A stretch of DNA of 64,000 nucleotides, taken from positions 124,001 to 188,000 of the forward strand of contig JAIETP010000010.1 in NCBI GenBank assembly GCA_019744975.1. Reading direction: 5' to 3'. Shown piece by piece: positions 12,769 through 17,430 of the stretch (its first letter is position 1; each line of letters starts with the position of its first letter). The position numbers were made by a program, and so were the translations under genes. The stretch comes from Burkholderiales bacterium. GTDB lineage: Bacteria; Pseudomonadota; Gammaproteobacteria; Burkholderiales; SG8-41. Below the pieces are notes generated by a model. It was not told where the DNA came from and made no database searches. It saw only the letters and a list, made by a program, of their open reading frames with translations.

Positions 12769-13770
12769 CTAGGCCGCCCTGAACACTTCCGGATTCAAAA
12801 AATTACGCTGGTCATAGACCTCCCCGCGCAGGTAACTGACGATGTTGCTGGCGGCGATCGTGCCCATGCGCACCATCGCATCGGTGGTCGCCGCAGCGAC
12901 GTGCGGTGTCACCAGCACGCTGGGCAGCATGAACAGCGGGTTCGCCGCATCGGGGGGTTCCGTCGCAAACGTATCCAGCCCGGCGCCTGCAAGTTTGCCG
13001 TTTTTCAAGGCCTCCACCAGCGCCGCCTCGTCGATCACCGGCCCGCGCGCGGTGTTGACCAGCAGCGCACCCGGTTTCATGCGCGCGATCTGCGCGGCGC
13101 CGATCATGCCGCGGGTTTTGGCGGTCAGCGGACAATGCAGACTGAGAATATCGACGTGCTCCAGCAACCGGTTGAGATCCGGCTCAAGGCTCATGCCCGC
13201 CGGCAGCGTGATGCCGGACCGCGTGTGTATCACCACCTGCGCGCCGCAAGCCTGCACCAGACGCGCGGTGCGCTCACCGATCTGGCCGTAACCGAGGATG
13301 CCGACGGTGAGAGTGTGAAATTCGCGGGTAAAGTGTTTCAGGTCGCGCCATGCCCCGCGCCGCGTCTCACGGTCAAACCGCGGTATCTCGCGGGCAAGAC
13401 ACAGCATCATCGTCAGCGCATGTTCGGCCACCGCGTCGGCATTGGCGCCGCCGGCCACCATCACCGCAATGCCGTGTTTTGTGGCCCCTGCGAGGTCCAC
13501 GGAATCGACGCCGGCGCCGTGTTTGGCGACAATTTTCAGGCCGCGTGCCGCGGCAAACACCCGCTCCGTCAACGGTGGCGAGCCGCGCAGCAACACGGCC
13601 GCAACCGTACCCCTGGACAAAGCCGCCACCAATGCATCTTCATCGATCACGCCGGGCATGAATTCAATATCGGCGCCGCCTTCCCGCAACAGTTGCTGCG
13701 CCAGATCAGAGACTGTCCCCGCGGTAACCAGCACGACCGGTTTGCTCAAAGCCCGCTCCTTTTCTCGCAT
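12769..13770 (-). CDS. D-2-hydroxyacid dehydrogenase (phosphoglycerate dehydrogenase-like)
   Basis: A protein of 326-333 residues with the two-domain D-isomer-specific 2-hydroxyacid dehydrogenase fold. Seen are VAKHGAGVDSVDLAGATKHG, AEHALTMMLCLAREI, the Rossmann GILGYGQIGERTARLVQA, DILSLHCPLTAKTRGMIG, VNTARGPVIDEAALVEAL (catalytic Arg), a Glu in DTFATEPPD and His in VLVTPHVAAATTDAM. The substrate is not predictable (phosphoglycerate, hydroxypyruvate or glyoxylate-type acids). The coordinates use the ATG of MREKERAL; a TTG seven codons later (13749) has a better-spaced AGGAG and may be the real start. Confidence 0.9.
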   Translation of the reverse strand: MREKERALSKPVVLVTAGTVSDLAQQLLREGGADIEFMPGVIDEDALVAALSRGTVAAVLLRGSPPLTERVFAAARGLKIVAKHGAGVDSVDLAGATKHGIAVMVAGGANADAVAEHALTMMLCLAREIPRFDRETRRGAWRDLKHFTREFHTLTVGILGYGQIGERTARLVQACGAQVVIHTRSGITLPAGMSLEPDLNRLLEHVDILSLHCPLTAKTRGMIGAAQIARMKPGALLVNTARGPVIDEAALVEALKNGKLAGAGLDTFATEPPDAANPLFMLPSVLVTPHVAAATTDAMVRMGTIAASNIVSYLRGEVYDQRNFLNPEVFRAA

Positions 13771-13968: not shown

Positions 13969-14991
13969 ATGCATCGCCATATTTCTGCAATCGGTATTTC
14001 TGTAATCAATATTTCCGCAATTAATATTTTCGCAATCGGTATTTCTGTAATACAGGGCCTGCTCGTACTCGCGCCGGCCGGCCAGGCAATGGCCCAGCAA
14101 TACCCCAGCCGGCCGATCCGCCTGATCGTACCTTTCCCTGCCGGCGGCAACGTCGACGTGTTTTCGCGCATGTTGTTCCGTCAGGTCGAGACTGAAATCG
14201 GCACCAACTTTGTCATCGATAACCGCGGCGGCGCCAACAGCATCATCGGCTCCGACGTGCTCAAAAACGCCACACCCGACGGCTATACCGTCATGAACAC
14301 TTCCTTCGGTTTCGCGGTTAATCCGGCCATCGTCAAAAAAATGCCGTTTGACGTGCTCCGCGATTTCACACCGATCACCAATGTCGCCACCGGCCTCGGT
14401 TACCTGTTGGTGGTGAATCCGAAGGTCCCCGTCAAAAACGTTTCCGAGATGATCGCGCTCGCCAAAAAAGAACAGCTGCGCTACAGCACCGCCGGCGTCG
14501 GCAACGGCCAGCATCTGGCCGGCGCGCTGCTCGCGAACATGACCAGGACCAATATGCTGCACGTACCGTACAAGGGCGGCGGGCCGGCTGTCGCCGCCTG
14601 CATCAGCGGTGAAGTGCAGGTGCATTTCCCCGCAGGTTCGGTCGGTGTGCCGCACCACAAAGCCGGTCGCGTCCGCGCAATCGCATTTACCGGTGCAAAA
14701 CGCCTGTCCTCGCTGCCGGAGATTCCGACGGTCGGCGAAACCGTGAATGGTTATGTTTCGGACGCCGGCTGGCACGGCATGTTCGGCCCGGCCAAACTGC
14801 CGGCACCGATCACAAAAAAACTGCAGCAGTCCGTCCATAAAGCGCTTCAGGATCCGAAGGTTCGGGCCAACTTTGTCGACAACGGTTACGAGCCCAATGG
14901 CGACCCGCCGGAGGTCTGGGCCAAACTGTTCCGCAACGACGTCAAGCGTTTCGCCGAAATCGCCAAGTCTGCGGGCATCGAGCCGCAATAA
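13969..14991 (+). CDS. Bug/TctC family periplasmic substrate-binding protein (2), repeat-expanded signal peptide
   Basis: A 340-residue exported binding protein starting after GGAGGAG. The mature part is standard Bug: YPSRPIRLIVPFPAGGNVDV, DNRGGANSIIGSDVL, DGYTVMNTSFGFAVN, YSTAGVGNGQHLAGALLANM and HVPYKGGGPAVAACISGEV. The N terminus is odd: after MHRHIS the hydrophobic core is built from five-residue repeats AIGIS-VINIS-AINIF-AIGIS, encoded by 15-bp tandem units, before VIQGLLVLAPAGQAMAQ. Export is still expected because the segment is hydrophobic, but the repeat lengthens the signal peptide to about 43 residues. No transporter membrane genes are adjacent. Confidence 0.94.
   Translation: MHRHISAIGISVINISAINIFAIGISVIQGLLVLAPAGQAMAQQYPSRPIRLIVPFPAGGNVDVFSRMLFRQVETEIGTNFVIDNRGGANSIIGSDVLKNATPDGYTVMNTSFGFAVNPAIVKKMPFDVLRDFTPITNVATGLGYLLVVNPKVPVKNVSEMIALAKKEQLRYSTAGVGNGQHLAGALLANMTRTNMLHVPYKGGGPAVAACISGEVQVHFPAGSVGVPHHKAGRVRAIAFTGAKRLSSLPEIPTVGETVNGYVSDAGWHGMFGPAKLPAPITKKLQQSVHKALQDPKVRANFVDNGYEPNGDPPEVWAKLFRNDVKRFAEIAKSAGIEPQ
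13972..14046 (+). repeat. 15-bp tandem repeat in the Bug (2) signal peptide
   Basis: Five units of 15 bases: CATCGCCATATTTCT, GCAATCGGTATTTCT, GTAATCAATATTTCC, GCAATTAATATTTTC, GCAATCGGTATTTCT. Units 2 and 5 are identical, suggesting recent duplication. Because 15 is a multiple of three, copy-number changes keep the frame. Confidence 0.85.
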
Positions 14992-15146
14992 TCCGCGCCA
15001 CCCCGGCGTCACGCACAGGCGACTGTCGGGGTGGCTGGCATCCATGACCATCAGCGGCCGGGGTCATCGTCCCCGCAGCGCCGGCAATCAGACTAGAATC
15101 ATCCCGCAACACCGCAGCCATGGCTGCGCTCACCACGGGAGTCCTC

Positions 15147-15671
15147 ATGCGCCTGACCGCAACACGCTTCACAGTCTTCATTGCCGCATTCGTGCTCGGT
15201 GCCGCTGCGCGCCCGGCCGCCGCCGAAACGCTGGCACCGCTGGCGCCGCCGACCCCGATGCCGTCCTTCATGATCCCCGCCCTCAACGGCGGCAGCGGCA
15301 GTGACGCCGATCTGCGCAACAAGGTCACCATCATCCGTTTCTGGGCCTCCTGGTGAAGTAGCTGCGTCCGCGAAATGCCCTCCGTGCAGAGGGCACATGA
15401 CGAACTGAAAAAAGACGGCGTCCAGGTCATCACCATATCCATCGACGGCACCGGCGCGGCTGCGGTCAAACCGGTATTTGCCAAGGGCGGCTACACCCTG
15501 CCCGCTCTGCTCGACCAGAACATGGATGTGGCGCGCGGTTTTGGCGTGCGCGGCGTACCGTCCACCGTGATCGTCGACAAAAAAGGCTTGATCAATGCGC
15601 GCGGCCTGGGTCACGTCGACTTTGACGGTCAGGTGCTGCGCAACTACGCGCGAAAACTCGCAAAACAATGA
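15147..15671 (+). CDS. Exported TlpA-like thioredoxin, predicted selenoprotein (UGA = Sec70)
   Basis: A 174-residue reading frame interrupted only by TGA at 15354-15356. Before it: a signal peptide (MRLTATRFTVFIAAFVLGAA to PAAAE), then PSFMIPALNGGSGSDADLRN and TIIRFWASW. After it in the same frame: SSCVREMPSVQRAHDEL, the GVPSTVIVDKKGLI cis-proline loop (residues ~136-140) and a normal C terminus. In TlpA/ResA proteins WASW is followed by CxxC, so the TGA stands exactly at the first catalytic cysteine, giving U-S-S-C. A hairpin of bacterial SECIS type follows. The natural reading is selenocysteine; a nonsense mutation is less likely because the next gene shows the same. ATG follows GGGAG. It lies 26 bases upstream of the peroxiredoxin gene, which it may reduce. 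Confidence 0.85.
15354..15395 (+). promoter_or_regulatory. Predicted Sec UGA codon with candidate bacterial SECIS hairpin (TlpA-like gene)
   Basis: TGA at 15354-15356 is followed by a 7-bp stem, TGCCCTC (15376-15382) with GAGGGCA (15389-15395), and a six-base loop CGTGCA. The loop starts 26 bases after the TGA and has G among its first two bases; both fit the published rules for bacterial SECIS elements (loop 16-37 bases away, a G at the first or second loop position). Folding was done by eye. Confidence 0.6.
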
Positions 15672-15697
15672 TTTTTTCATCACCAAAGGAGATGCCT

Positions 15698-16273
15698 ATG
15701 TCCCGGATGTCGTTATTACAACGCTGGATTGTGGCGGGTTTGCTGGGCGGGGCCGCGCTGTTCGCCGGCACTGCACAGGCACAGGCATTGAAGATCGGTG
15801 ACAAGGCGCCCGCTTTTTCCGTGATTTCCACCACCGGCAAACCGGTGGCGCTCGCGGACTACCTCGGCAAAAAAAATGTGGTGCTGTTTTTCTATATTGG
15901 CGCTTTCACCGATACCTGAACGACCGAAGTCGTGGCCTTCCAGCTTGATCTTCCCAAGTTCGAGGCCGCCAATGCCCAGGTCCTGGGCATCAGTGTCGAT
16001 TTCAACGCCGCCAACACCGTGTTCGCCGAAAAACTCGGATTGACGTTTCCGCTGCTGAGCGATACGCGCCGGGTGATGACCCGGGATTACGGTGTGCTCA
16101 ATGACGACCCGGCACTCGCCAAAGACGCCAAACGCATCGCCGGTTACCTGCGCGCGAAACGCTCCTGGTTCATCATCGACCGCGAAGGCATCGTGCGTTA
16201 CGCCAATGTCGGCGATCCGCGCGGCATCATGCCCAACGACGAGCTGCTGGAAGTACTGGCAAAAATGCGTTGA
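15698..16273 (+). CDS. Exported AhpC/TSA-type peroxiredoxin, predicted selenoprotein (UGA = Sec74)
   Basis: A 191-residue frame interrupted only by TGA at 15917-15919. A signal peptide (MSRMSLLQRWIVAGLLGGAA to AQAQ) precedes LKIGDKAPAFSVISTTGKPV and VVLFFYIGAFTDT; the same frame continues TTEVVAFQLDLPKFEAANAQ, VLGISVDFNAAN, FAEKLGLTFPLLSDTRRVM and RSWFIIDREGIVRYANVGD. In peroxiredoxins this site is FTxxC(T)TE, so the TGA replaces the peroxidatic cysteine. The rest of the protein has no cysteine at all, so only Sec makes a redox enzyme of it: a 1-Sec peroxiredoxin, presumably periplasmic. The second of three nearby ATGs is chosen from its spacing to AAGGAG. Co-transcribed with the TlpA-like gene and followed by a terminator. 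Confidence 0.85.
15917..15967 (+). promoter_or_regulatory. Predicted Sec UGA codon with weaker SECIS candidate (peroxiredoxin gene)
   Basis: TGA at 15917-15919 is followed by an outer stem GGCCT (15934-15938) / AGGCC (15963-15967) and inner stem AGCTTG (15942-15947) / CAAGTT (15955-15960) with loop ATCTTCC about 28 bases after the TGA. Position fits, but the loop has no G in its first two bases unless the closing G-C pair opens. A 5-bp hairpin ACGAC-CGAA-GTCGT directly after the TGA is an alternative. Confidence 0.4.
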
Positions 16274-16280
16274 CCGCGGC

Positions 16281-16316
16281 GGTGCGGCCCGCAAAGGGCC
16301 GCACCCTCCGCTTTTT
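16281..16316 (+). terminator. Intrinsic terminator after the selenoprotein pair
   Basis: GGTGCGGCCC, loop GCAAA, GGGCCGCACC, then CTCCGCTTTTT. A strong 10-bp GC stem that closes the two-gene unit. Confidence 0.8.
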
Positions 16317-16324
16317 CGTGCCGC

Positions 16325-17290
16325 TTAATCCAGTTTCAGGTTCAGCTTTTTCAGGATCTTTTCGTTGCGTTGCATCTCGTTGCGGATGTAGGCATCGTAA
16401 TCGGCGGGCGTCATCGTGCCCTCCGAAAAACCCTGTTTTGCCAGGATAGCGCCCGCCTCCGGCGACTTCAGCGCCTTGCCGACTTCCGCCGACAGGCGTT
16501 CAACAATGGGCCGCGGTGTGCCGGCGCGTATCATGATGCCGAACCAGTTCAGCGATTCAAAACCCGGCCAGCCGGATTCGGCAATGGTCGGGATCTGCGG
16601 CAGATTCGATGCGCGTTGCGCCGACGTCACTGCAATACCACGCAGGCGGCCCGAAGGAATGTACTGGGAGCAATCGAGTACATTGCCGACCAGCAACGTG
16701 ATGTGGCCACCGAGGATCGCCGTCGTCGCCGGTGCGCCGCCGCCAAAGGGCACATTGACGATGTTGATGCTGGCAATATCCTTGAACAACTCGCCGGCGA
16801 TACGCCCGCCGCCGATGATGCTCGACACCCCCCAGGTCAACTCGCCGGGCCGTGCCTTGGCCAGCGCCACCAGCTCCTTCATGTTTTTCGCCGGCAGCGA
16901 CGGATGCGCGCAGAAAATCAGCGGGTTGTAGACCATCCGCGTCACACCGCTGAAATCGCGCAGCGTGTCGTACGGCAGTTTGTTGTACGCAAACGGGTTC
17001 ACCGTGAAACTCGTCGCCATCACCAGCATCGTGTAGCCGTCGGCCGGCGCACGCGCCACGATTTCCGTGGCAATCACCGTGTTGGCGCCCGGCCTGTTTT
17101 CGATCACCAGATTCTGGCCCAGCGCCTTGGACACCGGCGGCGCAATCAGCCGCGCCATCGTGTCGGCGGCGCCGCCCGGCGGAAACGGCACCACGACACG
17201 GATCGATTTTGCTGGATATTCCTGTGCAACGACCTGCAGCGAAACCAGTGCAGCAACGGCTAACAGCAGCTTCGGCAAAACATGCGTCAT
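16325..17290 (-). CDS. Bug/TctC family periplasmic substrate-binding protein (3)
   Basis: A 321-residue exported binding protein. The ATG of MTHVLPKLLLAVAALVSLQV (signal peptide ending VVAQ) is chosen because GGGAGAG lies upstream; the frame is open for 27 more codons without a signal sequence. The mature part begins EYPAKSIRVVVPFPPGGAAD and has NRPGANTVIATEIVARAPAD, GYTMLVMATSFTVNPFAYNK, TWGVSSIIGGGRIAGELFKD and NVPFGGGAPATTAILGGHI. Convergent with the selenoprotein pair. A copy of the dispersed AT-rich repeat lies about 110 bases upstream of the start, in the orientation of the gene. Confidence 0.94.
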   Translation of the reverse strand: MTHVLPKLLLAVAALVSLQVVAQEYPAKSIRVVVPFPPGGAADTMARLIAPPVSKALGQNLVIENRPGANTVIATEIVARAPADGYTMLVMATSFTVNPFAYNKLPYDTLRDFSGVTRMVYNPLIFCAHPSLPAKNMKELVALAKARPGELTWGVSSIIGGGRIAGELFKDIASINIVNVPFGGGAPATTAILGGHITLLVGNVLDCSQYIPSGRLRGIAVTSAQRASNLPQIPTIAESGWPGFESLNWFGIMIRAGTPRPIVERLSAEVGKALKSPEAGAILAKQGFSEGTMTPADYDAYIRNEMQRNEKILKKLNLKLD

Positions 17291-17397
17291 GGCGCTCTCT
17301 CCCAGGTGGCAACGGATCGGTGTCCGGATTGTTATGCGCCTGACAATACGCGCCACCATGCGTCCCGGCAAAACAAGTCATCCGTACCGCATAATAG

Positions 17398-17430
17398 ACA
17401 ATAATAATGTTTAAAAACAAATACTTACAT
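17398..17430 (-). repeat. Dispersed AT-rich repeat, copy 2
   Basis: On the minus strand, ATGTAAGTATTTGTTTTT then AAACATTATTATTG; the first 18 bases match the repeat core. It lies upstream of Bug gene 3 and after the end of the DUF3095 gene, in the same orientation as both. Confidence 0.6.

Follow-up and report, generated by a model that had tools for sequence, protein, structure and literature searches.

Two adjacent genes in the genome of a Burkholderiales bacterium are best explained as a small operon for two exported selenoproteins, namely a TlpA/ResA-type thioredoxin with a UxxC motif and an AhpE-like 1-Sec peroxiredoxin that would be recharged by it. For operon, selenocysteine (Sec) insertion and electron-transfer scheme taken jointly, we put the probability at about 0.7. 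Each protein is, as judged by sequence, of a known selenoprotein type, while the pair itself is undescribed in the literature searched.

Two Adjacent Genes With In-Frame TGA Codons

The pair lies in the window, i.e. the whole stretch of 64,000 nucleotides that was analysed, and all of its features are on the forward strand. The TlpA-like reading frame (15147-15671) contains one internal TGA at 15354-15356, within FWASW-U-SSC, and the peroxiredoxin frame (15698-16273), which follows after 26 bases in the same direction, contains one at 15917-15919, within AFTDT-U-TTE. The terminal stop of both frames is also TGA. When the internal TGA is read as Sec, both frames are uninterrupted (...FWASWUSSCVREMPS... 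and ...FFYIGAFTDTUTTEVVAFQLDL...), with Sec at residue 70 of the TlpA-like protein and at residue 74 of the peroxiredoxin, and both products match AhpC-TSA/Redoxin in Pfam. None of the NCBIfam models listed was exceeded at its cut-off by either window protein; for the other aligned family members only E-values were available, without a comparison to the cut-offs. The first-pass annotation had described two consecutive exported redox genes 26 bases apart, each with a single in-frame TGA exactly at the catalytic residue and the second free of cysteine. The coordinates, the spacing and both translations bear this out, and the N-terminal hydrophobic, signal-like stretches of both proteins were judged by eye only. 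Its proposal of a shared terminator holds in part: a strong 10-bp hairpin does lie behind the pair (16281-16305; z -3.3 for 16270-16325), but the T-run (16312-16316) begins 6 bases past the stem and a terminator scan called nothing, so that the hairpin remains a possible terminator. No promoter-like site was called by scan at the pair, a Rfam search of 15100-16400 gave no match, and a comparison with plasmids matched 11 records, every one at less than 60% identity. The pair is flanked by genes that look by eye like those of TctC/Bug-type solute-binding proteins (13969-14991 and 16325-17401), a kind that recurs nearby in the window.

Conservation of the In-Frame TGA Codons

In a search of 61 genomes at an E-value of 1e-20, exactly one in-frame TGA was found at the site in 28 of 30 peroxiredoxin and 23 of 25 TlpA matches, and the four matches without TGA are weaker (92 bits or less) and have Cys at the site. 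Among 399 genomes of the order, with at most eight candidates scored per genome, 18 have a match at 1e-30 among the matches listed. Fifteen of these rows, at 4.4e-67 or better, all carry one TGA, as does a second copy in G264 (5e-33), and three at 5.7e-32 to 5.9e-31 carry none. In a control with 31 genomes, 17 of 93 TlpA-family matches have a TGA, and these are the top 17 by score (at least 214.5 bits); the remaining 76, without TGA, all score 98.1 bits or less. At the level of loci, clade I comprises 49 of 73 (L072-L120), mostly from records with Burkholderiales or Betaproteobacteria titles and two from Candidatus Entotheonella. It has U in 49/49 peroxiredoxins and in all 46 TlpA sites covered on the contig, which leaves out L086 (C-terminal piece only) as well as L087 and L111 (no TlpA on the contig, which ends), and no Cys version of TlpA or peroxiredoxin was seen within the clade. 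The 61-genome and 73-locus sets overlap (e.g. L072 and G005:C34), so that their counts are not additive. The same pair occurs in several MAGs (L077, L078, L079, L099, L100 and others) under the record titles Rhizobiaceae, Bordetella parapertussis or Chitinophaga pinensis, which look doubtful.

Behind the TGA, silent differences are 3 to 10 times commoner than amino-acid-changing ones in both genes (five relatives compared per gene; against L072, pN 0.027 and pS 0.27 for TlpA, pN 0.053 and pS 0.361 for the peroxiredoxin). Since this indicates purifying selection behind the TGA, reading appears to continue through the codon. In both genes, furthermore, homologues carry Cys or Sec at the position of the in-frame UGA. 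The first-pass annotation had named homologues lacking Cys or Sec at these sites, sequencing errors and missing Sec genes as grounds for giving up its reading, and none of these applies: the sites are kept as Sec or Cys in relatives, the TGAs are found again at the corresponding codon in dozens of assemblies, and selA, selB, selC and selD are all present over cut-off. Sec insertion at both TGAs is very strongly supported by these comparisons, in the absence of protein or selenium data.

Selenocysteine Machinery of the Genome

The genome from which the window comes has a size of 3.69 Mb and a completeness of 99%, and it encodes SelB (424 bits), SelA (579 bits) and SelD (420 bits), all over the curated cut-offs, as well as a tRNA-Sec (selC; 76 bits, over cut-off) to which ARAGORN assigns the anticodon tca. 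The selD gene carries a Sec codon of its own (GGUGCK). TGA still means stop in this genome, since both genes of the pair end in it. Formate dehydrogenase is rejected as the reason for the machinery, the genome's only formate dehydrogenase alpha over cut-off having Cys (RLCHASS). The genome departs from a reported pattern in which FdhA was the sole selenoprotein of the Alpha-, Beta- and Pseudomonadales genomes known at the time to decode Sec (PMC1794560, as far as the accessible part of that source goes). Across the 61 genomes, tRNA-Sec was found in 27 of 28 with a TGA-bearing peroxiredoxin versus 16 of 33 without one, the sole exception among the former (G008) being 79% complete; the genomes are related, so that these counts are not independent points. 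A thioredoxin-reductase-like gene (L016:9929-10855, on C3 of the same genome) shares 4 bases with the end of selB and lies upstream of selC at 13199; it scores 224.8 bits to TRX_reduct, below the cut-off of 343.45.

Pairing Across Relatives

Conserved synteny, which had been proposed as a check, is found, with a TlpA-family gene beside a Sec peroxiredoxin in four architectures. In architecture I (clade I, L072-L120) both genes have Sec and TlpA comes first in 46/46. Architecture II, a CxxC TlpA followed by a Sec peroxiredoxin, occurs in seven loci (L212-L217, L219) of the phylum of L128, which is Methylomirabilota-titled. The order is reversed in architecture III, where in 13 loci of the same phylum a Sec peroxiredoxin is followed by a Sec TlpA, mostly with WUPDC, and at least nine of them show a possible start codon in a 4-base overlap with the stop. 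It is likewise reversed in architecture IV, in which the TlpA has Cys (seven loci, Betaproteobacteria- and Deltaproteobacteria-titled records). In the 61-genome set, a TGA-bearing TlpA was found in 23 genomes, none of which lacks the TGA-bearing peroxiredoxin. A TlpA-family match at 1e-6 was not found in 10 loci (L218, L226, L228-L230, L235-L239) of the 30 of the L128 phylum whose neighbours were examined, the 30 not being all the matches listed, nor in L124 and L127, which are of the architecture IV kind. The Sec peroxiredoxins without a nearby TlpA may use another reductant or a distant TlpA.

In the peroxiredoxin tree, which includes 19 of the 49 clade-I rows, a branch with support 100/97 sets apart the 50 rows of architectures I-IV, four unpaired ones among them. 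All of these have Sec, and no sampled member shows a change of the peroxiredoxin away from it. For the TlpA tree, 19 of the 46 clade-I rows were used, together with 4 of the 10 background rows; the other six of the latter dropped out when matches were chosen by E-value and W[U/C]xxC motif. Here architecture I joins II (98/92) and III joins IV (96/89), a grouping that matches gene order, and the Sec/Cys state changes at least twice. An AU test does not firmly exclude a single Sec clade (p 0.061), and the group for this test was named after the tree was seen. In an earlier tree, L199 formed a very long branch and was probably misaligned. From these phylogenies, the pairing seems to predate the Sec/Cys state that TlpA has today. 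No third operon gene at a constant place was apparent when ORFs of at least 80 aa were clustered over 60 loci, the clusters being unannotated. Leaving aside fragments and shadow frames of the pair itself, the clusters that occur in most loci are two large ones with many copies (513 ORFs in 59 loci and 242 in 51), which, judged by eye, resemble TctC/Bug-type binding-protein genes and shadow frames and were left unresolved. Further arrangements were also seen. On L242 (1539-2551; G427:C292) a peroxiredoxin-like frame with the odd motif ADUAMC lies directly upstream of a TlpA with WUPKC and is a further candidate for a Sec-Sec pair, and on L241 (G427:C134) a CxxC TlpA is flanked by two Sec peroxiredoxins on one short contig. 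Several L128-phylum genomes have two to four matches to the peroxiredoxin model, mostly with one TGA each.

Candidate SECIS Elements

The bacterial SECIS (bSECIS) model asks for an apical loop of 3-9 nt with G in its first two positions, an upper stem of 4-16 bp, a distance of 16-37 nt from the UGA and an MFE of at most -7.5, according to the part of the source that was available (PMC13188914). A stem-loop behind the TlpA TGA (15376-15395) meets it, with 7 bp, the loop CGUGCA located 26 nt behind the TGA, and -14.9 kcal/mol for 57 nt. In the alignment, 98.1% of cells in this stem are paired, compared to at most 67.6% in slid controls; three pairs show double changes, none of 500 shuffles reaches the covariation score, and the loop is identical in all 47 sequences. 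In the window sequence alone, the region is not unusually stable (z -0.91). On this comparative evidence, the element is a covarying bacterial-type SECIS. Architecture III has a different stem behind its TlpA TGA, with about 7 pairs and the loop AGUUG or AGUUA.

The candidate stem-loop behind the peroxiredoxin TGA (15934-15967) is stable in the window (z -3.1), fits the bSECIS model in stem, distance and energy (-20.1), and has 90% of cells paired versus at most 63.2% when slid, but its covariation is weak and depends on the register. Its number of double-changed pairs is reached by 202 of 500 shuffles, a slide by +1 gives a covariation score of 0.121 versus 0.122, a slide by +2 gives as many double changes, and RNAalifold favours a shifted register without double changes. 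Furthermore, the loop AUCUUCC satisfies the demand for a G within the first two positions only with the closing G-C pair taken as open. A SECIS at this site is likely but unproven.

The Peroxiredoxin and Its TlpA-Like Neighbour

By sequence, the peroxiredoxin is nearest to BCP/AhpE-type peroxiredoxins, with Bcp4 and AhpE among the best matches. It has an AhpC/TSA domain (Pfam, 2e-33), and the fold is supported by comparing an AlphaFold model (C substituted for U; pLDDT 86) with the PDB, where Sulfolobus Bcp4 and M. tuberculosis AhpE are the closest solved chains. These known enzymes use Cys, and Bcp4 keeps the Pro of the motif in the alignment shown. AhpE and Bcp4 are cytosolic, and the reductant of AhpE is mycothiol/mycoredoxin. 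The window protein has no Cys at all and thus no resolving Cys. Of the 49 clade-I peroxiredoxins, 41 likewise lack Cys from the first aligned residue onward. Seven others contain a single Cys towards the N-terminus, at a distance of 52-57 residues ahead of the Sec, and L088 alone has one behind the Sec (at +4), the remaining 48 having none there. Thr at -3 of the peroxidatic Sec is present in 49/49 members of clade I, all eight of II, all of IV and 11 of 13 of III. By contrast, the Pro at -7 of PxxxTxxC/U, which is present in 9/9 Cys peroxiredoxins found by the same model, is not present in clade I (Ile 41, Val 6, Thr 2; n=49), the position being Ile in 8/8 of II (with L218) and in 13/13 of III and Val in 9/9 of IV (with L124 and L127). 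These motif counts leave out five clade-I rows and the second row of L201 (TlpA cross-matches), one clade-II row (the second peroxiredoxin of L216) and L242 (shifted alignment). Sec peroxiredoxins outside the four architectures are mixed, with Pro in L126, L135, L138, L143, L207 and L243 and none in, for example, L129, L132, L144 and L209. The loss of Pro is no proof of pairing, because it accompanies several Sec lineages. The protein shares the peroxiredoxin fold and, as we infer for its activity, works like a peroxiredoxin, with a motif that has departed at the Pro.

The nearest relatives of the TlpA-like protein by sequence are ResA/TlpA-type thioredoxins, and an AlphaFold model (C substituted for U; pLDDT 88) has 3kcm, ResA and TlpA as closest solved chains. 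The protein has the thioredoxin-like fold, the UxxC motif and, by eye, the export signal that are expected of the TlpA/ResA type, and its Sec takes exactly the place of the first Cys in CxxC. The NCBIfam scores stay below cut-off (ResA 74.6 of 170, TlpA 51.5 of 230 and DsbE 49.9 of 123.15 bits), and by this measure the protein is a family-level relative of ResA/TlpA/DsbE and not an equivalog.

Proposed Mechanism and Alternative Explanations

In the proposed scheme, SelB and Sec-tRNA would insert Sec at one UGA per gene, directed by a stem-loop within the coding sequence, for which support exists at the sequence level with the protein itself unobserved. In the periplasm, the selenol of the peroxiredoxin is inferred to reduce peroxide and thereby become selenenic acid; because the protein has no resolving Cys, it would need an outside reductant. 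The selenol of the UxxC motif could then attack the oxidised peroxiredoxin to give a mixed Prx-Se-Se-TlpA intermediate, which the Cys of the same motif would resolve, freeing the peroxiredoxin. The resulting Se-S bridge of TlpA would be reduced by DsbD, which is encoded elsewhere in the genome (613 bits). The two proteins thus probably act as a couple that reduces peroxide in the periplasm, with the UxxC TlpA recharging the 1-Sec peroxiredoxin, an inference made without protein, selenium or activity data and without a model of the complex; an inter-protein diselenide is possibly the route. The inference is strengthened by the missing resolving Cys and the recurrent pairing, and the 1-Cys enzyme AhpE among the closest solved folds was also counted for the partnership; it is weakened by the relatives without a TlpA nearby. 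A fuller version can be put forward only tentatively, and we would not give it even odds: a periplasmic selenium relay, with a Pro-less 1-Sec peroxiredoxin recharged via Prx-Se-Se-TlpA, Sec-Sec kept by selection, Sec gained or lost at least two times in the TlpA partner, and all 50 sampled peroxiredoxins with Sec.

The strongest competitor leaves Sec insertion intact and separates the two functions, so that both would be genuine periplasmic selenoproteins working in parallel, with a small thiol or some other protein of the Dsb type recharging the peroxiredoxin and the TlpA reducing other targets in haem or copper-centre assembly, as ResA, TlpA and CcmG do. The resemblance of the window TlpA to ResA and TlpA in sequence and fold speaks for this, the known targets of ResA and TlpA, among which PDB titles mention ScoI and cytochrome oxidase subunit II, are not peroxiredoxins, and in the wider set 12 Sec peroxiredoxins lack a TlpA match in their vicinity. 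However, the pairing recurs in four architectures and two gene orders, and no conserved cytochrome or copper gene is apparent beside the pair, as far as the unannotated clusters tell; we consider separate roles unlikely without dismissing them. It is far harder to maintain that the UGA-containing TlpA is mainly a selenium sensor, in which scarce Sec-tRNA would cause a stop in TlpA and polarity or decay would silence the peroxiredoxin, regulation and not catalysis keeping the Sec. The position of TlpA ahead of the peroxiredoxin in 46/46 clade operons, 26 bases upstream in the window, would suit such a role, but the 13 architecture III loci have the reversed order with both genes still Sec, and the Sec falls exactly on the first position of CxxC. 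Finally, nothing beyond the raw in-frame TGAs suggests sequencing errors, pseudogene stops or another amino acid under a changed code. The recurrence of the same codon in dozens of assemblies, the purifying selection behind it, the use of TGA as terminal stop of the same genes and the full Sec machinery lead us to reject these as far as sequence allows, with next to no credence left for them.

Relation to Known Systems and Implications

Sec peroxiredoxins, UxxC Prx-like or Trx-like proteins and other selenoprotein operons are known (PMC13188914, PMC9312934, PMC2398784, PMC1088965, PMC1794560, PMC5029168; these sources and those below were accessible only in part). The TxxU Sec peroxiredoxin, e.g. 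of Eubacterium acidaminophilum (PMC13188914), shares with the window protein the AhpC/TSA domain, Sec at the peroxidatic position and Thr at -3, whereas the window protein is exported (by eye), AhpE-like and without Cys, has Ile, Val or Thr in its clade for the Pro of PxxxTxxU, and is co-operonic with a TlpA-family protein; it is also below cut-off for the PrxU and Prx-SUH models of NCBIfam, as for every model listed. Similarly, UxxC Prx-like/Trx-like oxidoreductases and UGC-TlpA selenoproteins (PMC13188914, PMC2398784, PMC1088965) have the UxxC/UGC redox motif in a thioredoxin-like domain, whereas the window TlpA is below cut-off for WAxxUGC_long and all other NCBIfam models listed and is tied to a Sec peroxiredoxin. 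The SAO and Tso operons (PMC13188914) also encode several selenoproteins each, but of other families and with other proposed roles. The nearest published arrangement, in what could be seen of its source, consists of adjacent selenoprotein redox genes on GOS reads, where Prx is next to Prx-like 2 in one read and next to SelW in ten; in the former, the partner belongs to a distant pfam04592-like UxxC family, and these are single reads. A pair of a TlpA-type UxxC protein and a Sec peroxiredoxin was not found described in the open-access literature searched, as far as its accessible text goes, most subscription papers and supplements being outside the scope.

Every clade-I copy seen is cut by TGA, so that annotation not reading TGA as Sec would miss these genes or call them broken, although no specific record was compared. 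If the preferred reading of a recharged peroxiredoxin is true, the pair would be a physiological two-selenoprotein periplasmic redox couple, with Sec in both the peroxidase and its proposed reductase. The natural variation, with Sec or Cys in TlpA and always Sec in the peroxiredoxin of the pairs seen, would provide a comparative series on what Sec adds at each position, and the same series would allow one to ask whether diselenides between two proteins occur naturally.
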